Made by a program: the position numbers and the translations under genes. The notes below the pieces were generated by a model. The model was not told the DNA's origin. It worked only from the letters and a program-made list of their open reading frames with translations, and made no database searches. A stretch of DNA of 35,164 nt. Origin: Muribaculum sp. (GTDB lineage: Bacteria; Bacillota; Clostridia; Lachnospirales; Lachnospiraceae). The stretch is taken from NCBI GenBank assembly GCA_023663735.1, contig JAMPGV010000027.1:1-35164 (forward strand). The letters are read 5' to 3'. Every line of letters starts with the position of its first letter. Positions within the stretch are counted from its first letter, which is position 1. Of this stretch, positions 29,483 through 34,771 are shown in pieces.

Positions 29483-29986
29483 ATGGAAATCAATTTTTTG
29501 GTGGTTGTAGTTGTCGTTTTTCTGTTCGTCAAAGTGGTGGACGGATACAAGAAGGGGATGGTAAAGGAAATCATTTCTTTTCTATCGCTTATTTTTCTTT
29601 GTCTGGTGGGCGTTCTTGCGGTGAACGCCCTGAATGATTATTATGACGGAAGATTTTTGAACGTGGCGCTCATGGTGGTGTTTCTGGGCGTTTTGGGCAT
29701 CGTCCACCATCTGATCAACATAGCGGCATTTCCTGCGAAACTGGTGGCCAAACTTCCGGTCGTCCATAGTTTGGATAAACTGCTGGGAGCAGCGGTGGGA
29801 ATTTTGGAGACCCTATTGATTCTGTGGACGATCGACACGTTTATTATGGTGGCCGATACGGGAGTGCTGGGGGAAATGATTCTGCAGTATACGGCCGAAA
29901 ACCCGGTTCTGACATGGCTTTATGAACACAATCAGGTGGCGGGGTGGCTTCAGGTGTTGGGGGCGGAGCTTGCGCGCAGGGCATAG
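29483..29986 (+). CDS. CvpA-family membrane protein
   Basis: A 167-residue protein with about four hydrophobic helices. The N-terminal pattern VVVVVVFLFVKVVDGYKKGMV then EIISFLSLIFLC matches the CvpA (colicin V production) family. AGGGG precedes the ATG. Last gene of the LysM/DUF5711/CvpA run. Its 3' end overlaps the convergent sulfur-enzyme gene by 37 bases, with no terminator between. Family members are linked to envelope stress and secretion, but no biochemical role is fixed. Confidence 0.82.
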   Translation: MEINFLVVVVVVFLFVKVVDGYKKGMVKEIISFLSLIFLCLVGVLAVNALNDYYDGRFLNVALMVVFLGVLGIVHHLINIAAFPAKLVAKLPVVHSLDKLLGAAVGILETLLILWTIDTFIMVADTGVLGEMILQYTAENPVLTWLYEHNQVAGWLQVLGAELARRA

Positions 29987-31929
29987 TCAAAATCGCTGAT
30001 GATATCCGCAATATTTTCTATTCCCATGCTGATTCTCACCAGATCGTCGTAAACGCCTGCATCTTCTTTCTCTCGATCGCTTGAGTGCAGAGCCATGGTG
30101 GACGCCGGGTGAATCACCAGCGTCCGGTTGTCTCCGATATTGGATACGATTTTAGGAATGCGGAGCGCATCCATCACACGGAAGGCTCGTTCCTTTGAAC
30201 CAAACCTTACCGTCAGAACCGCGCCGTATCCGCCTTTCAAAATCTTCTTTGCGTTCTCATATCCCGGGCATTCTTCCAACCCGGGATAATTTACCGTGAT
30301 TCCCGGGATGGTTCTGAAATATTTTGCAAGGGCAAGGGCATTGGAACATTCCCGCTCCAGTCTGAGCGCCAAAGTCTCCATTCCCAGCAAATTCAGAAAT
30401 GCATTCTGAGGAGACAGACATGCTCCGTAATTGCAGAGCAGATCCGCGCGAAGCCTCACCGCAAAAGGCGGCAGGCCGCCGGGGTTGTCGAGGAATGGCG
30501 CGAGAGCGGGGAAACGTTTCGGATCCCATGCAAACTTTCCCCCGTCTGTCACGACGCCGCTGATGCCGCTTCCGCTTCCGTTGATATATTTGGAGGAAGA
30601 GTTGATGACAATATCTGCCCCTAATTCCAGCGGGCGGGCCAGACAGGCCGTTGCCATGGTATTGTCGATCACCAGAGGAATCCCGTGGCGGTGAGCGATT
30701 TCAGACAGTTTGCCGATATCGGCCACCCGCAGTCCCGGATTGCTGATGGTCTCGGCAAAGAGAAGCCGGACGTCGGGCGTGATTTGTTCCTCGATTGCGC
30801 AAAGGTTGTCTGTCGGGGCATATTTCACATGGATTCCAAACCGTTCAAGCCCCTTAAACAGTTCGATTGTTCCGCCGTACAGACCGTTTGCCGACACGAA
30901 AGAATCTCCTGCGCACAATCCGTTCATAAGCGTTCCCGTGATGGCGGCCATGCCGGAGGCAAAGGCCACGGATAGGACGCCCTGCTCCAGATCTGTCATG
31001 CGCTCCTCGAAGCAACGGACGGTAGGATTACTGATTCGGCTGTAATTATAGCCTGCTTTTTTCTTGGAAAAAATATCTGCAATTTCCTGTGCGTTTTCAT
31101 GGGAAAACGCGCTGACCTGAAAGAGCGGCGGCAAGGTGGCTCCGCCGGGGAATTCTGCGTCCTTTGCGCCGTGCAGCAGACGCGTGTGGAATCCCCGTTC
31201 TTTTGTTGCTTGAATGCGGAGCGCTTCTTCCTGATCGATTCGGATTCTGGACACGCCGTATTCCCCGCTGTGGCAAAGTTCATAGGTGTCCCTGCCGAGA
31301 ATGTTCTGCCAGGAAGTCCAGTCAATATTCCGTTCCCGTACATTTGCCAATACCTCATTCAGAAAGGGCTGCGGCACCTCCTTTGTGGTATGGGAGCCGA
31401 GATAAGTCTGAAAAGGCAGGGAAAGCGCTTTTTCCAACGTCTTTTCCAAAGTATCCAGAGTGTCATGATTCTCGGCAAACATCCACATGTCGGGATTGAA
31501 CGCATCGCCGGACAGCAGAAGGCCGTGTTCTTCCAGCAGAAACCCTACGGTTCCTTTTGTGTGTCCGGGGAGCGTTATCACCTTGACATGGATCCCTCCG
31601 AGATCATACTCCTCCTCGCCGGAAAGAGGCAGGAGAATCGGGTACTGTTCCTGACGGGAGGCATTTTGCTTGGCCATGTCAAGATCCGCCGGATGGATAA
31701 ATACCTCGTCGTATCGGCCGTTCCCGCCGACGTGGTCGGGATGTCCATGGCTGTTTATCACAAGATATGGCGTAGAGACAAGTTCCTCCACAAACGTCCG
31801 GTGATCGGCTTTTCCGTACCCGCTGTCTACCACGATCGCCAGACGGGTTCCTGTTATAATCGTAAAAAAGACGTCTTCGGCATCCTGCACATGCCATACG
31901 TTCTGCCGGATTTTGAATATTTCATGCAT
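29950..31929 (-). CDS. fusion of MBL-fold hydrolase and O-acetylhomoserine sulfhydrylase-type PLP enzyme
   Basis: One uninterrupted 659-residue frame. Residues 1-240 are a metallo-beta-lactamase-fold hydrolase with all expected metal ligands: H61, H63, D65, H66 (HGHPDH), H123 (PGHTKG), D142 (SGDAF) and H180 (GSH). Residues 245-659 are a Cys/Met-metabolism PLP enzyme closest to MetY: YNYSRISNPT (Y296, R298 for cofactor phosphate), AFASGMAAI, D422 (IDNTMA) and the PLP lysine K447 in SSSKYINGSG. MetY makes homocysteine from O-acetylhomoserine and sulfide. GGAGG precedes the ATG. It follows the binding-protein gene by 13 bases, so it ends a four-gene importer operon. Hypothesis: the hydrolase frees a sulfur nucleophile for the PLP domain. 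A gamma-lyase activity is the main alternative. Confidence 0.9.
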   Translation of the reverse strand: MHEIFKIRQNVWHVQDAEDVFFTIITGTRLAIVVDSGYGKADHRTFVEELVSTPYLVINSHGHPDHVGGNGRYDEVFIHPADLDMAKQNASRQEQYPILLPLSGEEEYDLGGIHVKVITLPGHTKGTVGFLLEEHGLLLSGDAFNPDMWMFAENHDTLDTLEKTLEKALSLPFQTYLGSHTTKEVPQPFLNEVLANVRERNIDWTSWQNILGRDTYELCHSGEYGVSRIRIDQEEALRIQATKERGFHTRLLHGAKDAEFPGGATLPPLFQVSAFSHENAQEIADIFSKKKAGYNYSRISNPTVRCFEERMTDLEQGVLSVAFASGMAAITGTLMNGLCAGDSFVSANGLYGGTIELFKGLERFGIHVKYAPTDNLCAIEEQITPDVRLLFAETISNPGLRVADIGKLSEIAHRHGIPLVIDNTMATACLARPLELGADIVINSSSKYINGSGSGISGVVTDGGKFAWDPKRFPALAPFLDNPGGLPPFAVRLRADLLCNYGACLSPQNAFLNLLGMETLALRLERECSNALALAKYFRTIPGITVNYPGLEECPGYENAKKILKGGYGAVLTVRFGSKERAFRVMDALRIPKIVSNIGDNRTLVIHPASTMALHSSDREKEDAGVYDDLVRISMGIENIADIISDFDYALRASSAPNT

Positions 31930-31942
31930 TGCGGAACCTCCG

Positions 31943-32962
31943 TTAATATGTTTCCTCTACACCGTCCAGAAAGAGGAAGGACTTTTCTATAAATGCATCC
32001 GTATCCGTGGATTCGCTCAAGAGTCCGATTTCTTTGAATTCCTTTGTGTTCTTGACTACGGCGTCGTAGCCGCCCTGCACGGAGGGCTTGAAATTATAAC
32101 TCTCCAGAATGCCGGCAAATACATCCGCATTGCCGGAAAGATATTCCTTCTCGATCAAAAGCCGGGCGGTTTCCTCCGGATGCTCCTCCACCCATGCGGA
32201 GGCTTTCATCACGGCTCTGGTAAATTTGGCCGCTTCCTCCGGGTGTTCTTTGGCAAAGGATCCCGTCACGAAGGTTGCGCAGCAATATTCGTCTGCGTAA
32301 GGCTCGTCCGTCGAGGTGTCCAGCAGCACGTTGTATCCGTATTGGTTGATGGCCACGGTGGCTGCCGGATCTACCAGACAGATAGCGTCCACCGCATTGT
32401 TTTCGAGAGCCAGTGCCAGATCCGAATTGCTGTATACCACAAAATCCACTTCCAAGTTGTCGGAAGTTACACCGATTCCCTTGCTGTAAAGCGCTCTCTT
32501 TAACATCACGGCAGGAGCTTCCGCAAGACCGACTACCCCCACGGTTTTCCCTTTCAGATCTTCTAATCCGTTGATCCCGGAATCCGGTTTTACAAGCAGT
32601 TTGATGCATCCGGTGTGGATCCCCGCCGTCATCACGATATCCAGCCCGTTTTCAATGGGCTGAATAAATTTGCTCACCAGACCATAGGCTGCGTCCACCT
32701 GACCGGATCCCACGTACTCTGTCACAAGCCCGTCCATTTTTACCACTTCATAATCCAGTCCCTCTTCGTCGAAATATCCGTTTTCAATGGCAAGCTGCAG
32801 GGGCGCTTGACAGAGAACCGTGCCGTAACCGATTTTGATGACGGCGCCGTCCGTTTTGTTCCCGGACTGTCCACTGTCCCCGCAGCCGGACAATAGAAGC
32901 GCAGCCGCCACGAATAAAGCCGCACCCTTTTTCAACAGTTTGTTCAAAGACTTCTTTTTCAT
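31943..32962 (-). CDS. SsuA/TauA-like substrate-binding lipoprotein
   Basis: A 339-residue lipoprotein: signal peptide MKKKSLNKLLKKGAALFVAA and lipobox LSGC with anchor Cys at residue 26. The mature domain is an NMT1/SsuA-type binding protein (IKIGYGTVLCQAPLQLAIEN, then NGYFDEEGLDYEVVKMDG; later GKTVGVVGLAEAPAVMLKRAL). A GGGAGG site precedes the ATG. Relatives bind sulfonates, taurine, nitrate or thiamin precursors, so the ligand cannot be named from sequence. The next gene in the operon is the MBL-MetY fusion, which favours a sulfur compound. Gene order is permease, ATPase, binding protein, enzyme. Confidence 0.9.
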   Translation of the reverse strand: MKKKSLNKLLKKGAALFVAAALLLSGCGDSGQSGNKTDGAVIKIGYGTVLCQAPLQLAIENGYFDEEGLDYEVVKMDGLVTEYVGSGQVDAAYGLVSKFIQPIENGLDIVMTAGIHTGCIKLLVKPDSGINGLEDLKGKTVGVVGLAEAPAVMLKRALYSKGIGVTSDNLEVDFVVYSNSDLALALENNAVDAICLVDPAATVAINQYGYNVLLDTSTDEPYADEYCCATFVTGSFAKEHPEEAAKFTRAVMKASAWVEEHPEETARLLIEKEYLSGNADVFAGILESYNFKPSVQGGYDAVVKNTKEFKEIGLLSESTDTDAFIEKSFLFLDGVEETY

Positions 32963-32990: not shown

Positions 32991-33776
32991 TTATATGTAA
33001 TAGCTGACCTCAGCGTCCTTGCCTCCATAATTTAAAAGTTTCAATATTCTGGAGCGGTAAAGCAGAAATTCCTCTCCGCTTCTTGCTCTGGGGCGGCTCA
33101 TCTTAATGTTGATTATTTTCTCGATTTTTGCCGGACGGGCGGACATGACGATTACCTTGTCGGAAAGATAGACGGCTTCATCTACATCGTGAGTTACCAT
33201 GATCATCGTCATATTTTCCTTTTCCCAGATACGCAGCAGTTCGTCCTGCATGTTCATTCTGGTAAAGGCGTCCAATGCCCCGAGAGGCTCGTCCAAAAGA
33301 AGGAGTCTGGGTTTGCCCACCAATGATCTGGCGAGGGACGCTCTCTGGCACATGCCTCCGGATAACTGATGGGGATAGGATTTTTCAAAACCTTCCAATC
33401 CCACCAGACGGATATTCTCTTCCACTTTCTCACGCACTAAGCGTTTCTCCATGCGGCGGTTTCCTGCTTTCAGTCCAAAGGCGATATTGTCATAGATATT
33501 CAGCCATGGGAAGAGAGTGGGATTCTGGAAGACAAGTCCCCTGTCGCATCCGGGACCTTTTACCGGCTCTCCATCCAGAAGCAGTTCTCCTTGATCCGCC
33601 TTAATCAGACCGGCAATCAGCCGAAGCAGAGTAGATTTTCCACATCCGGAAGGGCCGATAACCGACACGAAGGATCCGGCGTCAATGTCGATGCTTACGT
33701 GGTTCAATGCGACCATCTCTTCTCCGTCCCTGATGAAACTTTTCGTCACGTCCCGGACGCTTAATCCTCCTACCAT
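32991..33776 (-). CDS. SsuB/TauB-like ABC transporter ATPase
   Basis: Energy-coupling subunit of the importer. The 261-residue protein has Walker A GPSGCGKST, Q-loop VFQNPTLFPWL, signature LSGGMCQR, Walker B LLLLDEPLGALD and H-loop VTHDVDEA. The signature has Cys where Arg or Lys-Gln-Gln is usual (SGGMCQRASLAR), a mild deviation. The start is taken as ATG 33776, which follows AAAGGAG and overlaps the permease stop by a few bases; a longer start at 33797 would add seven residues and would place the ribosome site inside the gene. Expected to bind the membrane permease just upstream in the operon. Confidence 0.9.
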   Translation of the reverse strand: MVGGLSVRDVTKSFIRDGEEMVALNHVSIDIDAGSFVSVIGPSGCGKSTLLRLIAGLIKADQGELLLDGEPVKGPGCDRGLVFQNPTLFPWLNIYDNIAFGLKAGNRRMEKRLVREKVEENIRLVGLEGFEKSYPHQLSGGMCQRASLARSLVGKPRLLLLDEPLGALDAFTRMNMQDELLRIWEKENMTMIMVTHDVDEAVYLSDKVIVMSARPAKIEKIINIKMSRPRARSGEEFLLYRSRILKLLNYGGKDAEVSYYI

Positions 33777-34771
33777 TTGATGACTCCTTTCTGCCATACA
33801 AGCACTTTATCCCGTACACGAAACAGCAAAGTGATCAACACGGAAAACACTACGGCGATCACGATCAGACCGGCATACACATTGGCGTAGGAAAGCATTT
33901 CTTTCTGCCAGTTTACATACCATCCGATGCCGTATTTCGCGCCTATCATTTCGGCGGTCACAAGGGTGATGAAAGAAGAACAGGTTCCGTTGAACAGTCC
34001 GAGAAACATAAACGGCATGGCCGCCGGAACACCCACCGAAAAAATCTGTGTAAACCTGCCGGCTCCCAGCGTTCCGGAAACCTCGAAATACGCATTCGGG
34101 ACATTGCTGATGCCGCTGCTTGTCATGATCGTTGTGGGAAACCATACCGCAAGTGCGATCAAAAAGCTGCTCGCCGAGACCGCTGACGGAAAACATACCA
34201 GAACCAACGGAATCCAAGCGGTTGAGGGGATAGGACCCAGTACGCGGATAACAGGCATGAGCCAATAATTTGCCCTCTTGCTGAAGCCTATCAAAATTCC
34301 CGTGGAAATGCCGCACAGAGCGCCGAACAGACAGCCGGTGAACAGAAGCCGTGCCGAGTATGCGAGACATTTTAAGATCAGCATTCTTTCTTTGACCAGA
34401 GCCTCTAAAATTCTGTCCAAAGAGGGAAAATACAGCACCGGAAGCAGGACGAATTTCAACGTCGCCAGATTCAGGATATTGAAAAACAACACGGCGCCTG
34501 CAATAAATTCAGATTTGTGAAGAAGCTTTTTCCGGAGCGGCGCATTTGCGAAAGACAGAAGGACAAAGGCCAGATAAACCGTCAGGCCGATCACAAGGGC
34601 TATGTCAAAATACGGGTACACGGCCGCGGGATGCTTGGGGGAGTCTGGCAGCATTATTTGCAAGAGCAGGGCAAATAAAATAGAGAGTACCGGCAACGCC
34701 AGCTTATAACCGGAGGAAGTTTTTTCCTTATGTATCATGTGTCGTATTCCTTTCTTTTCAACAAGTTTCAT
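33770..34771 (-). CDS. SsuC/TauC-like ABC transporter permease
   Basis: A 333-residue integral membrane protein with several helices and the docking loop typical of this family (FEVSGTLGAGRFTQIFSVGV then PAAMPFMFLG). The N-terminal part (about residues 1-125) carries additional hydrophobic segments before the usual permease core, longer than standard SsuC proteins of about 250-260 residues. The ATG at 34771 has a modest AGGA site; ATG 34738 has a better AAAGGA site, so the start may be eleven codons later. First gene of the operon. Confidence 0.88.
   Translation of the reverse strand: MKLVEKKGIRHMIHKEKTSSGYKLALPVLSILFALLLQIMLPDSPKHPAAVYPYFDIALVIGLTVYLAFVLLSFANAPLRKKLLHKSEFIAGAVLFFNILNLATLKFVLLPVLYFPSLDRILEALVKERMLILKCLAYSARLLFTGCLFGALCGISTGILIGFSKRANYWLMPVIRVLGPIPSTAWIPLVLVCFPSAVSASSFLIALAVWFPTTIMTSSGISNVPNAYFEVSGTLGAGRFTQIFSVGVPAAMPFMFLGLFNGTCSSFITLVTAEMIGAKYGIGWYVNWQKEMLSYANVYAGLIVIAVVFSVLITLLFRVRDKVLVWQKGVIKW

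Follow-up and report, generated by a model that had tools for sequence, protein, structure and literature searches.

A metallo-beta-lactamase-fold hydrolase fused to a MetY-type enzyme and encoded behind an ABC importer in Lachnospiraceae

Introduction

Homocysteine synthesis that draws sulfur from a protein carrier was reportedly described in Wolinella succinogenes by Krishnamoorthy and Begley in 2011, with HcyS, HcyF and HcyD acting together with a MetY (structure 3ri6, which we take to be the Wolinella enzyme). In the ancestral carrier system, the JAB protein may release homocysteine. The Krishnamoorthy and Begley work on carrier-dependent homocysteine synthesis in Wolinella is cited in excerpted text of PMC5764234, and a gene group comprising ThiS/MoaD, JAB, E1, SirA, sulfite reductase and O-acetylhomoserine sulfhydrylase was reported in 2006 (PMC1779556, in excerpt). 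Additionally, the isethionate reductase Isr is described in an excerpt of PMC11423573 as working with SsuCAB in Rhodobacter capsulatus.

Here, we describe a gene from a Lachnospiraceae genome (G000) in which a metallo-beta-lactamase (MBL)-fold hydrolase and a MetY-type enzyme form one protein. The window is the whole stretch of DNA that was analysed, 35,164 nucleotides in length, and its features are listed in Table 1.

Table 1. Positions of the fusion gene, its domains and motifs, and the adjoining importer genes in the window
Feature	Position	Strand	Remarks
Fused MBL-MetY gene	29950..31929	-	659 aa; second copy at L068:10001-12043
MBL-fold hydrolase domain	31225..31929	-	approximately residues 1-235; Lactamase_B plus C-terminal tail
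HGHPDH metal motif	31732..31749	-	residues 61-66
MetY-type PLP domain	29965..31194	-	approximately residues 246-655; sulfur-carrier-linked clade
K447 codon, expected PLP lysine (SSKY)	30589..30591	-	
Substrate-binding protein, NMT1/SsuA superfamily	31943..32962	-	
ABC importer ATPase	32991..33797	-	
ABC importer permease	33770..34771	-	first operon gene as far as the contig shows

Architecture and recurrence of the fusion

The preliminary description had claimed a single frame carrying all MBL and PLP residues, and this was confirmed: the gene is one open frame without an internal stop codon, on the minus strand (a plus-strand reading was rejected), and every listed residue is there. The N-terminal half belongs to the MBL-fold hydrolase superfamily by its Pfam Lactamase_B score (residues 21-180, 53.5 bits against a cut-off of 22.7) and its HxHxDH...H...D...H ligands (H61, H63, D65, H66, H123, D142, and H180), and the C-terminal half belongs to the Cys/Met PLP enzymes by its Pfam Cys_Met_Meta_PP score (PF01053, residues 249-651, 346 bits against a cut-off of 27) and its PLP residues (Y296, R298, D422, and K447). 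No ATG, GTG or TTG occurs in codons 227-262, with a single GTG at codon 226, so that no separate start is evident for the PLP half at the boundary. A plus-strand gene for a CvpA-type (Colicin V production) protein (29483-29986) meets the 3′ end of the fusion gene tail to tail, with an overlap of 37 bases.

A second fusion of the same kind, 680 aa long and 60% identical to that of the window, is found at locus L068 in the Lachnospiraceae MAG RGIG8602, with all of the above metal ligands and PLP residues identical. In both genomes, the gene order is permease, ATPase, binding protein and fusion; the importer proteins are 72-74% identical, the permease and ATPase genes overlap by the same 28 bases, and the binding protein and fusion genes are separated by 13 bp in the window and by 17 bp in L068. 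An assembly error, which had been named as a possible refutation, is therefore not borne out, since an independent fusion in another MAG, preceded by the same genes in matching order, makes chance or misassembly very unlikely. Because the fusion recurs together with its importer, the observation is stronger than first reported.

The fusion is nevertheless rare, and the count of genomes with both the fusion and its neighbourhood that had been proposed came to two, those of the window and of L068. L068 is the one locus with this fusion among 43 from a contig scan with the MBL alignment, which used two peptide patterns, can miss relatives and may omit records close to the window's genome. A frame spanning both halves was found only in the window's genome among 61 relatives, among 392 genomes of the order (MBL query, matches at E 1e-20), and among the matches listed for 397 genomes of the family and 398 of the phylum; among 338 genomes of the family of L068, it was found only in G1141, the genome of L068 itself. 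These genome sets overlap one another, and a fusion may go unseen where a contig breaks off; in genome G004, a MetY copy begins at a contig edge. The window's genome comprises 2.65 Mb in 73 contigs and is 87% complete, so absences from it are soft. In the open-licence PMC literature, no published description of an MBL-MetY fusion was found.

The MBL half

Across 31 aligned MBL rows, H61, H63, D65, H123, D142, and H180 are invariant and H66 is conserved in at least 90%. The best NCBIfam model for this half is GloB glyoxalase II, followed by the generic MBL core, with lactonase models lower; its score for GloB glyoxalase II (TIGR03413), 44.1 bits, lies far below the curated cut-off of 200.8. The best solved relatives by profile are 2zo4 (an MBL family protein), 2xf4 (a hydroxyacylglutathione hydrolase) and 1xm8 (a glyoxalase II), and the persulfide dioxygenase ETHE1 is a weak match.

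Unfused MBL relatives are about 240-270 aa long and share a C-terminal tail with the fusion. One of them, L069 from Oscillospiraceae, is 44-47% identical and ends at its own stop codon, with 174 bases of contig left. The neighbourhoods of the unfused relatives contain no widely shared neighbour and no sulfur link. They were rejected as a guide to substrate, as all families present in at least five loci (ABC ATPases aside) come from one cluster found in 5-6 MAGs. In six loci (L076-L080 and L103), the MBL relatives lie beside a small shared cluster with epimerase-like and formyltransferase-like genes, as judged by eye. At L070 (276-1808), the MBL relative forms the C-terminal end of a 511-aa frame, which may thus be another fusion, with an unnamed N-terminal partner.

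The MetY half and its sulfur-carrier-linked clade

The C-terminal half had been called MetY-type. It is indeed an intact MetY-type PLP domain, but its position in a tree, a missing loop and the neighbours of its relatives place it in a carrier-linked clade rather than with ordinary MetY. The O-acetylhomoserine sulfhydrylase model TIGR01326 is still the top-scoring of all models, with 402.2 bits against a cut-off of 495.1, and its clade mate L066 likewise falls below that cut-off (441.3 bits). In a quick tree of 71 MetY proteins (2 fused, 40 from a close group and 29 other hits; SH-aLRT support, no bootstrap), the two fused halves pair with each other (SH-aLRT 100) and nest inside the close group (98 with 21 members, 99 with 29, and 95 with 38), outside the 27-row canonical group of the tree. 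Row labels in this tree follow the source of the row and not its neighbourhood; L031, one of 30 canonical rows intended for it, is absent, and two canonical-labelled rows, L007 and L008, branch beside the carrier-linked clade.

Clade-diagnostic columns were taken from 38 close and 27 canonical rows, with L181, L184, L007 and L008 left out. The close-group state is kept at 24 of the 31 columns in the window's fusion and at 27 in L068, nine of the 31 being not independent because all represent one missing loop, which reads PSYHG in canonical MetY. The structures 7kb0, 8sf5 and 4kam have this loop, whereas the fusion and 3ri6 lack it. By both sequence clade and missing loop, the fusion is a member of the carrier-linked MetY clade.

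The surroundings of this clade were surveyed at 40 loci, two from G004 and 38 chosen among the best matches listed in the family and phylum searches. Homologues of ThiF and of JAB each occur in 33 of the 40 loci and a sulfite reductase homologue in 34; some clade loci lie on short contigs, and three (L165, L181 and L183) are without any of these homologues. Domain scans confirmed ThiF, Prok-JAB, sulfite reductase and TusA in L066 and L067. Beside ThiF, a ThiS-like protein was found in 25 of the 26 loci where the ThiF motif was called, under a rule that allowed at most six residues after GG and required the ThiF motif to adjoin; the motif missed 14 of the 40 loci, in seven of which ThiF was found by BLAST. 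When GG was required at the very end, hits were obtained in 4 of the 40 loci, two of them (L179 and L185) ThiS-like by eye. The ThiS-like protein of L066, the only one scanned, is Pfam ThiS. This protein (L066:3208-3411) and those of 24 similar loci end in GGG followed by one to six residues; the ThiS-like carrier may therefore need trimming before activation.

Membership of the MetY half in a clade linked to ThiS-like carriers suggests that a thiocarboxylate, and not free sulfide, was probably the nucleophile used by its ancestor. Furthermore, the window's genome contains two ordinary MetY copies besides the fusion, and the use of plain sulfide thus does not require the fusion. A close match to the clade-type E1 is lacking: neither fusion genome has a full-length match, the best partial matches being 33-34% identical (E about 1e-16), whereas the control genome G004 has two matches at 93-100%. 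On this basis, the fusion enzyme has apparently left its protein sulfur carrier behind, and its MetY half appears to have a fused hydrolase and its own importer where it once had a ubiquitin-like carrier. Against carrier loss, the partial matches point to a distant ThiF-family protein in each fusion genome, which could in principle serve a carrier. A sulfite reductase of the L066 type was considered for the window's genome and rejected, its two short matches being confined to the ferredoxin-like part.

Fusions also occur elsewhere in the clade. At L168 (5076-7691) and L167 (5419-8250), one frame joins a MetY of the same clade to a preceding sulfate adenylyltransferase GTPase of the CysN type, assigned in L168 by a score above the NCBIfam CysN cut-off and in L167 by Pfam GTPase domains and by eye. 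The joining of this MetY clade to a sulfur-supply enzyme thus recurs, and because the CysN step is not directly before MetY, fusion per se is no proof of hand-over.

The ABC importer and its relatives

The three importer genes lie directly upstream of the fusion on the same strand, in an operon whose start may be incomplete, as the contig ends 393 bases past the permease gene. All 11 members of the binding protein's subfamily (window and L068 included) have cysteines 51, 119, 227 and 228, and none of five more distant binding proteins has them; one of these cysteines falls in a GxHxGC stretch, and a further cysteine, C195, is found only in the two fusion operons. The invariant cysteines may line the pocket. 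A sulfonate cargo is therefore not assumed despite the superfamily name; the binding protein also scores below the SsuABC cut-off (TIGR01728, 109 against 163.5 bits). Among NCBIfam models, SaoA matches the ATPase best, and SaoX and SaoP rank second for the binding protein and permease, respectively. Assignment to the SAO organometal system by name was rejected, all three scores missing their cut-offs (SaoA 280 against 360, SaoX 88.9 against 300, and SaoP 86.8 against 295 bits).

At E 1e-60, nine relatives of the binding protein (38-47% identical; L121-L129) were found, each in a different genome among the other 396 of the family. They share the four invariant cysteines and mostly lie beside nitrogenase-like, CysK-like and FtsX/MacB genes. 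Nitrogenase-like or NifB/NifH/NifX-like genes occur in six of the nine loci, CysK-, cystathionine-synthase- or PatB-like genes in six, nitrogenase-like and/or sulfur-amino-acid genes in seven (all except L125 and L126), and an FtsX/MacB permease with its ATPase in seven. The CysK, PatB-like, LysR and NifH-like labels were given by eye, and those of the two nitrogenase-type subunits and of the NifX-like, NifB-like, cystathionine-synthase-like, DUF4418 and FtsX proteins come from scans of single examples. In L068, though not in the window, the fusion is followed by an FtsX/MacB module that includes a DUF4418 homologue.

Nitrogenase-like sulfur assimilation (Mar/Isr) in the same genome was considered and rejected: Oxidored_nitro proteins had no match in the window's genome (87% complete), with matches in 4 of 14 control genomes. 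Neither the window nor L068 contains a SAM riboswitch or T-box at gathering score. Two TwoAYGGAY RNA motifs lie on the minus strand of L068 (6838-7000 and 3389-3541), one shortly before the start of the fusion operon and on the strand opposite to it.

Proposed function and alternatives

We tentatively favour, at somewhat below even confidence, a reading of the fusion as a sulfur-scavenging enzyme with its own importer, in which the MBL half hydrolyses an imported compound and the MetY half captures the sulfur on O-acetylhomoserine. The ABC system would import a thiol-seeking (soft) sulfur compound held by the cysteine-rich binding protein; the MBL half, as a metal-dependent thioesterase-like hydrolase, would release a nucleophilic sulfur species (thiol, thiocarboxylate or sulfide) close to the PLP half, which would add it to the vinylglycine intermediate from O-acetylhomoserine and so yield homocysteine or an S-substituted homocysteine. 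The ancestor would have been a MetY working with the thiocarboxylate of a ThiS-like protein, the carrier machinery later being lost and replaced by the MBL domain and the importer. Substrate, hydrolysis chemistry, step order and product are here inferred. The window's genome contains a MetA with the sequence GAPVE; a glutamate after GAPV presumably marks the acetyl type, and this MetA is apparently of the O-acetyl type.

The preliminary description had placed the two sites in sequence, with sulfur released at the first and trapped at the second. This order of steps is plausible, the sites being intact and conserved and accompanied by an importer, a MetA and thioesterase-like kin of the MBL half, but the order could also be the reverse. 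Against the sulfur-scavenging reading stand the unfused MBL relatives with their lack of any sulfur link, as well as the two importer-relative loci, L125 and L126, that are without nitrogenase-like or sulfur-amino-acid genes, the lack of a SAM riboswitch or T-box at gathering score, the two ordinary MetY copies of the window's genome and the distant ThiF-family match in each fusion genome.

In the reverse order, the PLP half would act first on an imported small-molecule thiocarboxylate (R-COS-) to give an S-acyl-homocysteine, from which the MBL half, as a thioesterase, would free homocysteine before the acyl group moves to nitrogen, thereby replacing the JAB peptidase of the ancestral system. 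We consider this unlikely overall and yet a serious rival, owing to the history of the clade, in which relatives of the PLP half probably take thiocarboxylate: the fusion has the clade position and missing loop of carrier-linked enzymes, JAB is frequent at clade loci and had no match in the window's genome at E 0.1, in a search that ran without a positive control and is to that extent a point against, and the MBL half has thioesterases of the glyoxalase II type among its near relatives of solved structure. The MBL half nevertheless falls far short of the curated GloB cut-off, and we know of no abundant small thiocarboxylate established as an environmental nutrient, which also counts against this order. 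A homocysteine synthase that works without a protein carrier, its PLP half using the imported thiocarboxylate directly and its fused MBL domain standing in for JAB, seems to us rather doubtful; if true, an external thioacid would be converted to homocysteine by a route that is coupled to a hydrolase and needs no carrier.

It is improbable that the enzyme makes another thioether amino acid or detoxifies a thiol, with the imported compound itself as nucleophile and the MBL half only trimming it (for example, as a thioester or thiolactone). The absence of the loop in this MetY clade may make the active site accessible to bulky nucleophiles, as this alternative would have it, but the sulfur-amino-acid genes near importer relatives, together with the clade's links to sulfite reductase and CysN, suggest sulfur supply instead.

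Handling of a thiol compound of a metal or metalloid, in the manner of the SAO organometal system, appears very unlikely: the rank of the Sao models, the four invariant cysteines of the binding protein with one in the GxHxGC stretch, and the FtsX/MacB exporter found nearby in L068 and at most importer-relative loci are in its favour, and the missed Sao cut-offs are against it. Hardly more credible is a fusion without coupling, whether unrelated activities brought together so that they are expressed jointly or, least probably, an artefact of assembly. In its favour, none of the MBL loci examined other than L068 is flanked by a MetY homologue (within at most 10 kb, and less where a contig ended); against it, the same fusion with all named catalytic residues kept occurs in two genomes, and the CysN-type fusions show that joining to sulfur-supply enzymes recurs in this clade.

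The fusion and its importer hint at an uncharacterised sulfur source for these bacteria. The binding protein offers a direct handle, because its ligand would name the substrate of the fusion. Additionally, the analysis brings to attention an importer subfamily that is rich in cysteines and occurs alongside nitrogenase-like and sulfur-amino-acid genes.

Comparison with known systems

The pairing of an SsuABC-type importer with a sulfur-releasing enzyme, as proposed here, resembles that of Isr and SsuCAB in Rhodobacter capsulatus as given in the excerpt of PMC11423573, although Isr is nitrogenase-like and no nitrogenase-like protein was found in the window's genome. The gene set of the clade loci resembles the gene group of 2006 as excerpted from PMC1779556, as well as the carrier-dependent route of Wolinella. 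Glyoxalase II (GloB) and related MBL hydrolases (2zo4, 2xf4 and 1xm8) share the metal motif with the MBL half and are its best distant matches, but the MBL half scores far below the GloB cut-off. Canonical O-acetylhomoserine sulfhydrylases (7kb0, 8sf5 and 4kam) are of the same PLP family as the MetY half and have like PLP residues, whereas they retain the PSYHG loop that the fusion lacks, and the fusion lies outside their 27-row group. The CysN-MetY proteins of L168 and L167, like the window's fusion, combine a MetY of this clade with a sulfur-supply partner, which is a sulfate adenylyltransferase GTPase in the former and an MBL hydrolase in the latter. The carrier system of Wolinella succinogenes shares the MetY type, as judged by the missing loop and by the ThiS, ThiF, JAB and sulfite reductase neighbours of the clade; beside the fusion, where no carrier, E1 or JAB is seen, an MBL domain and an importer are present instead.
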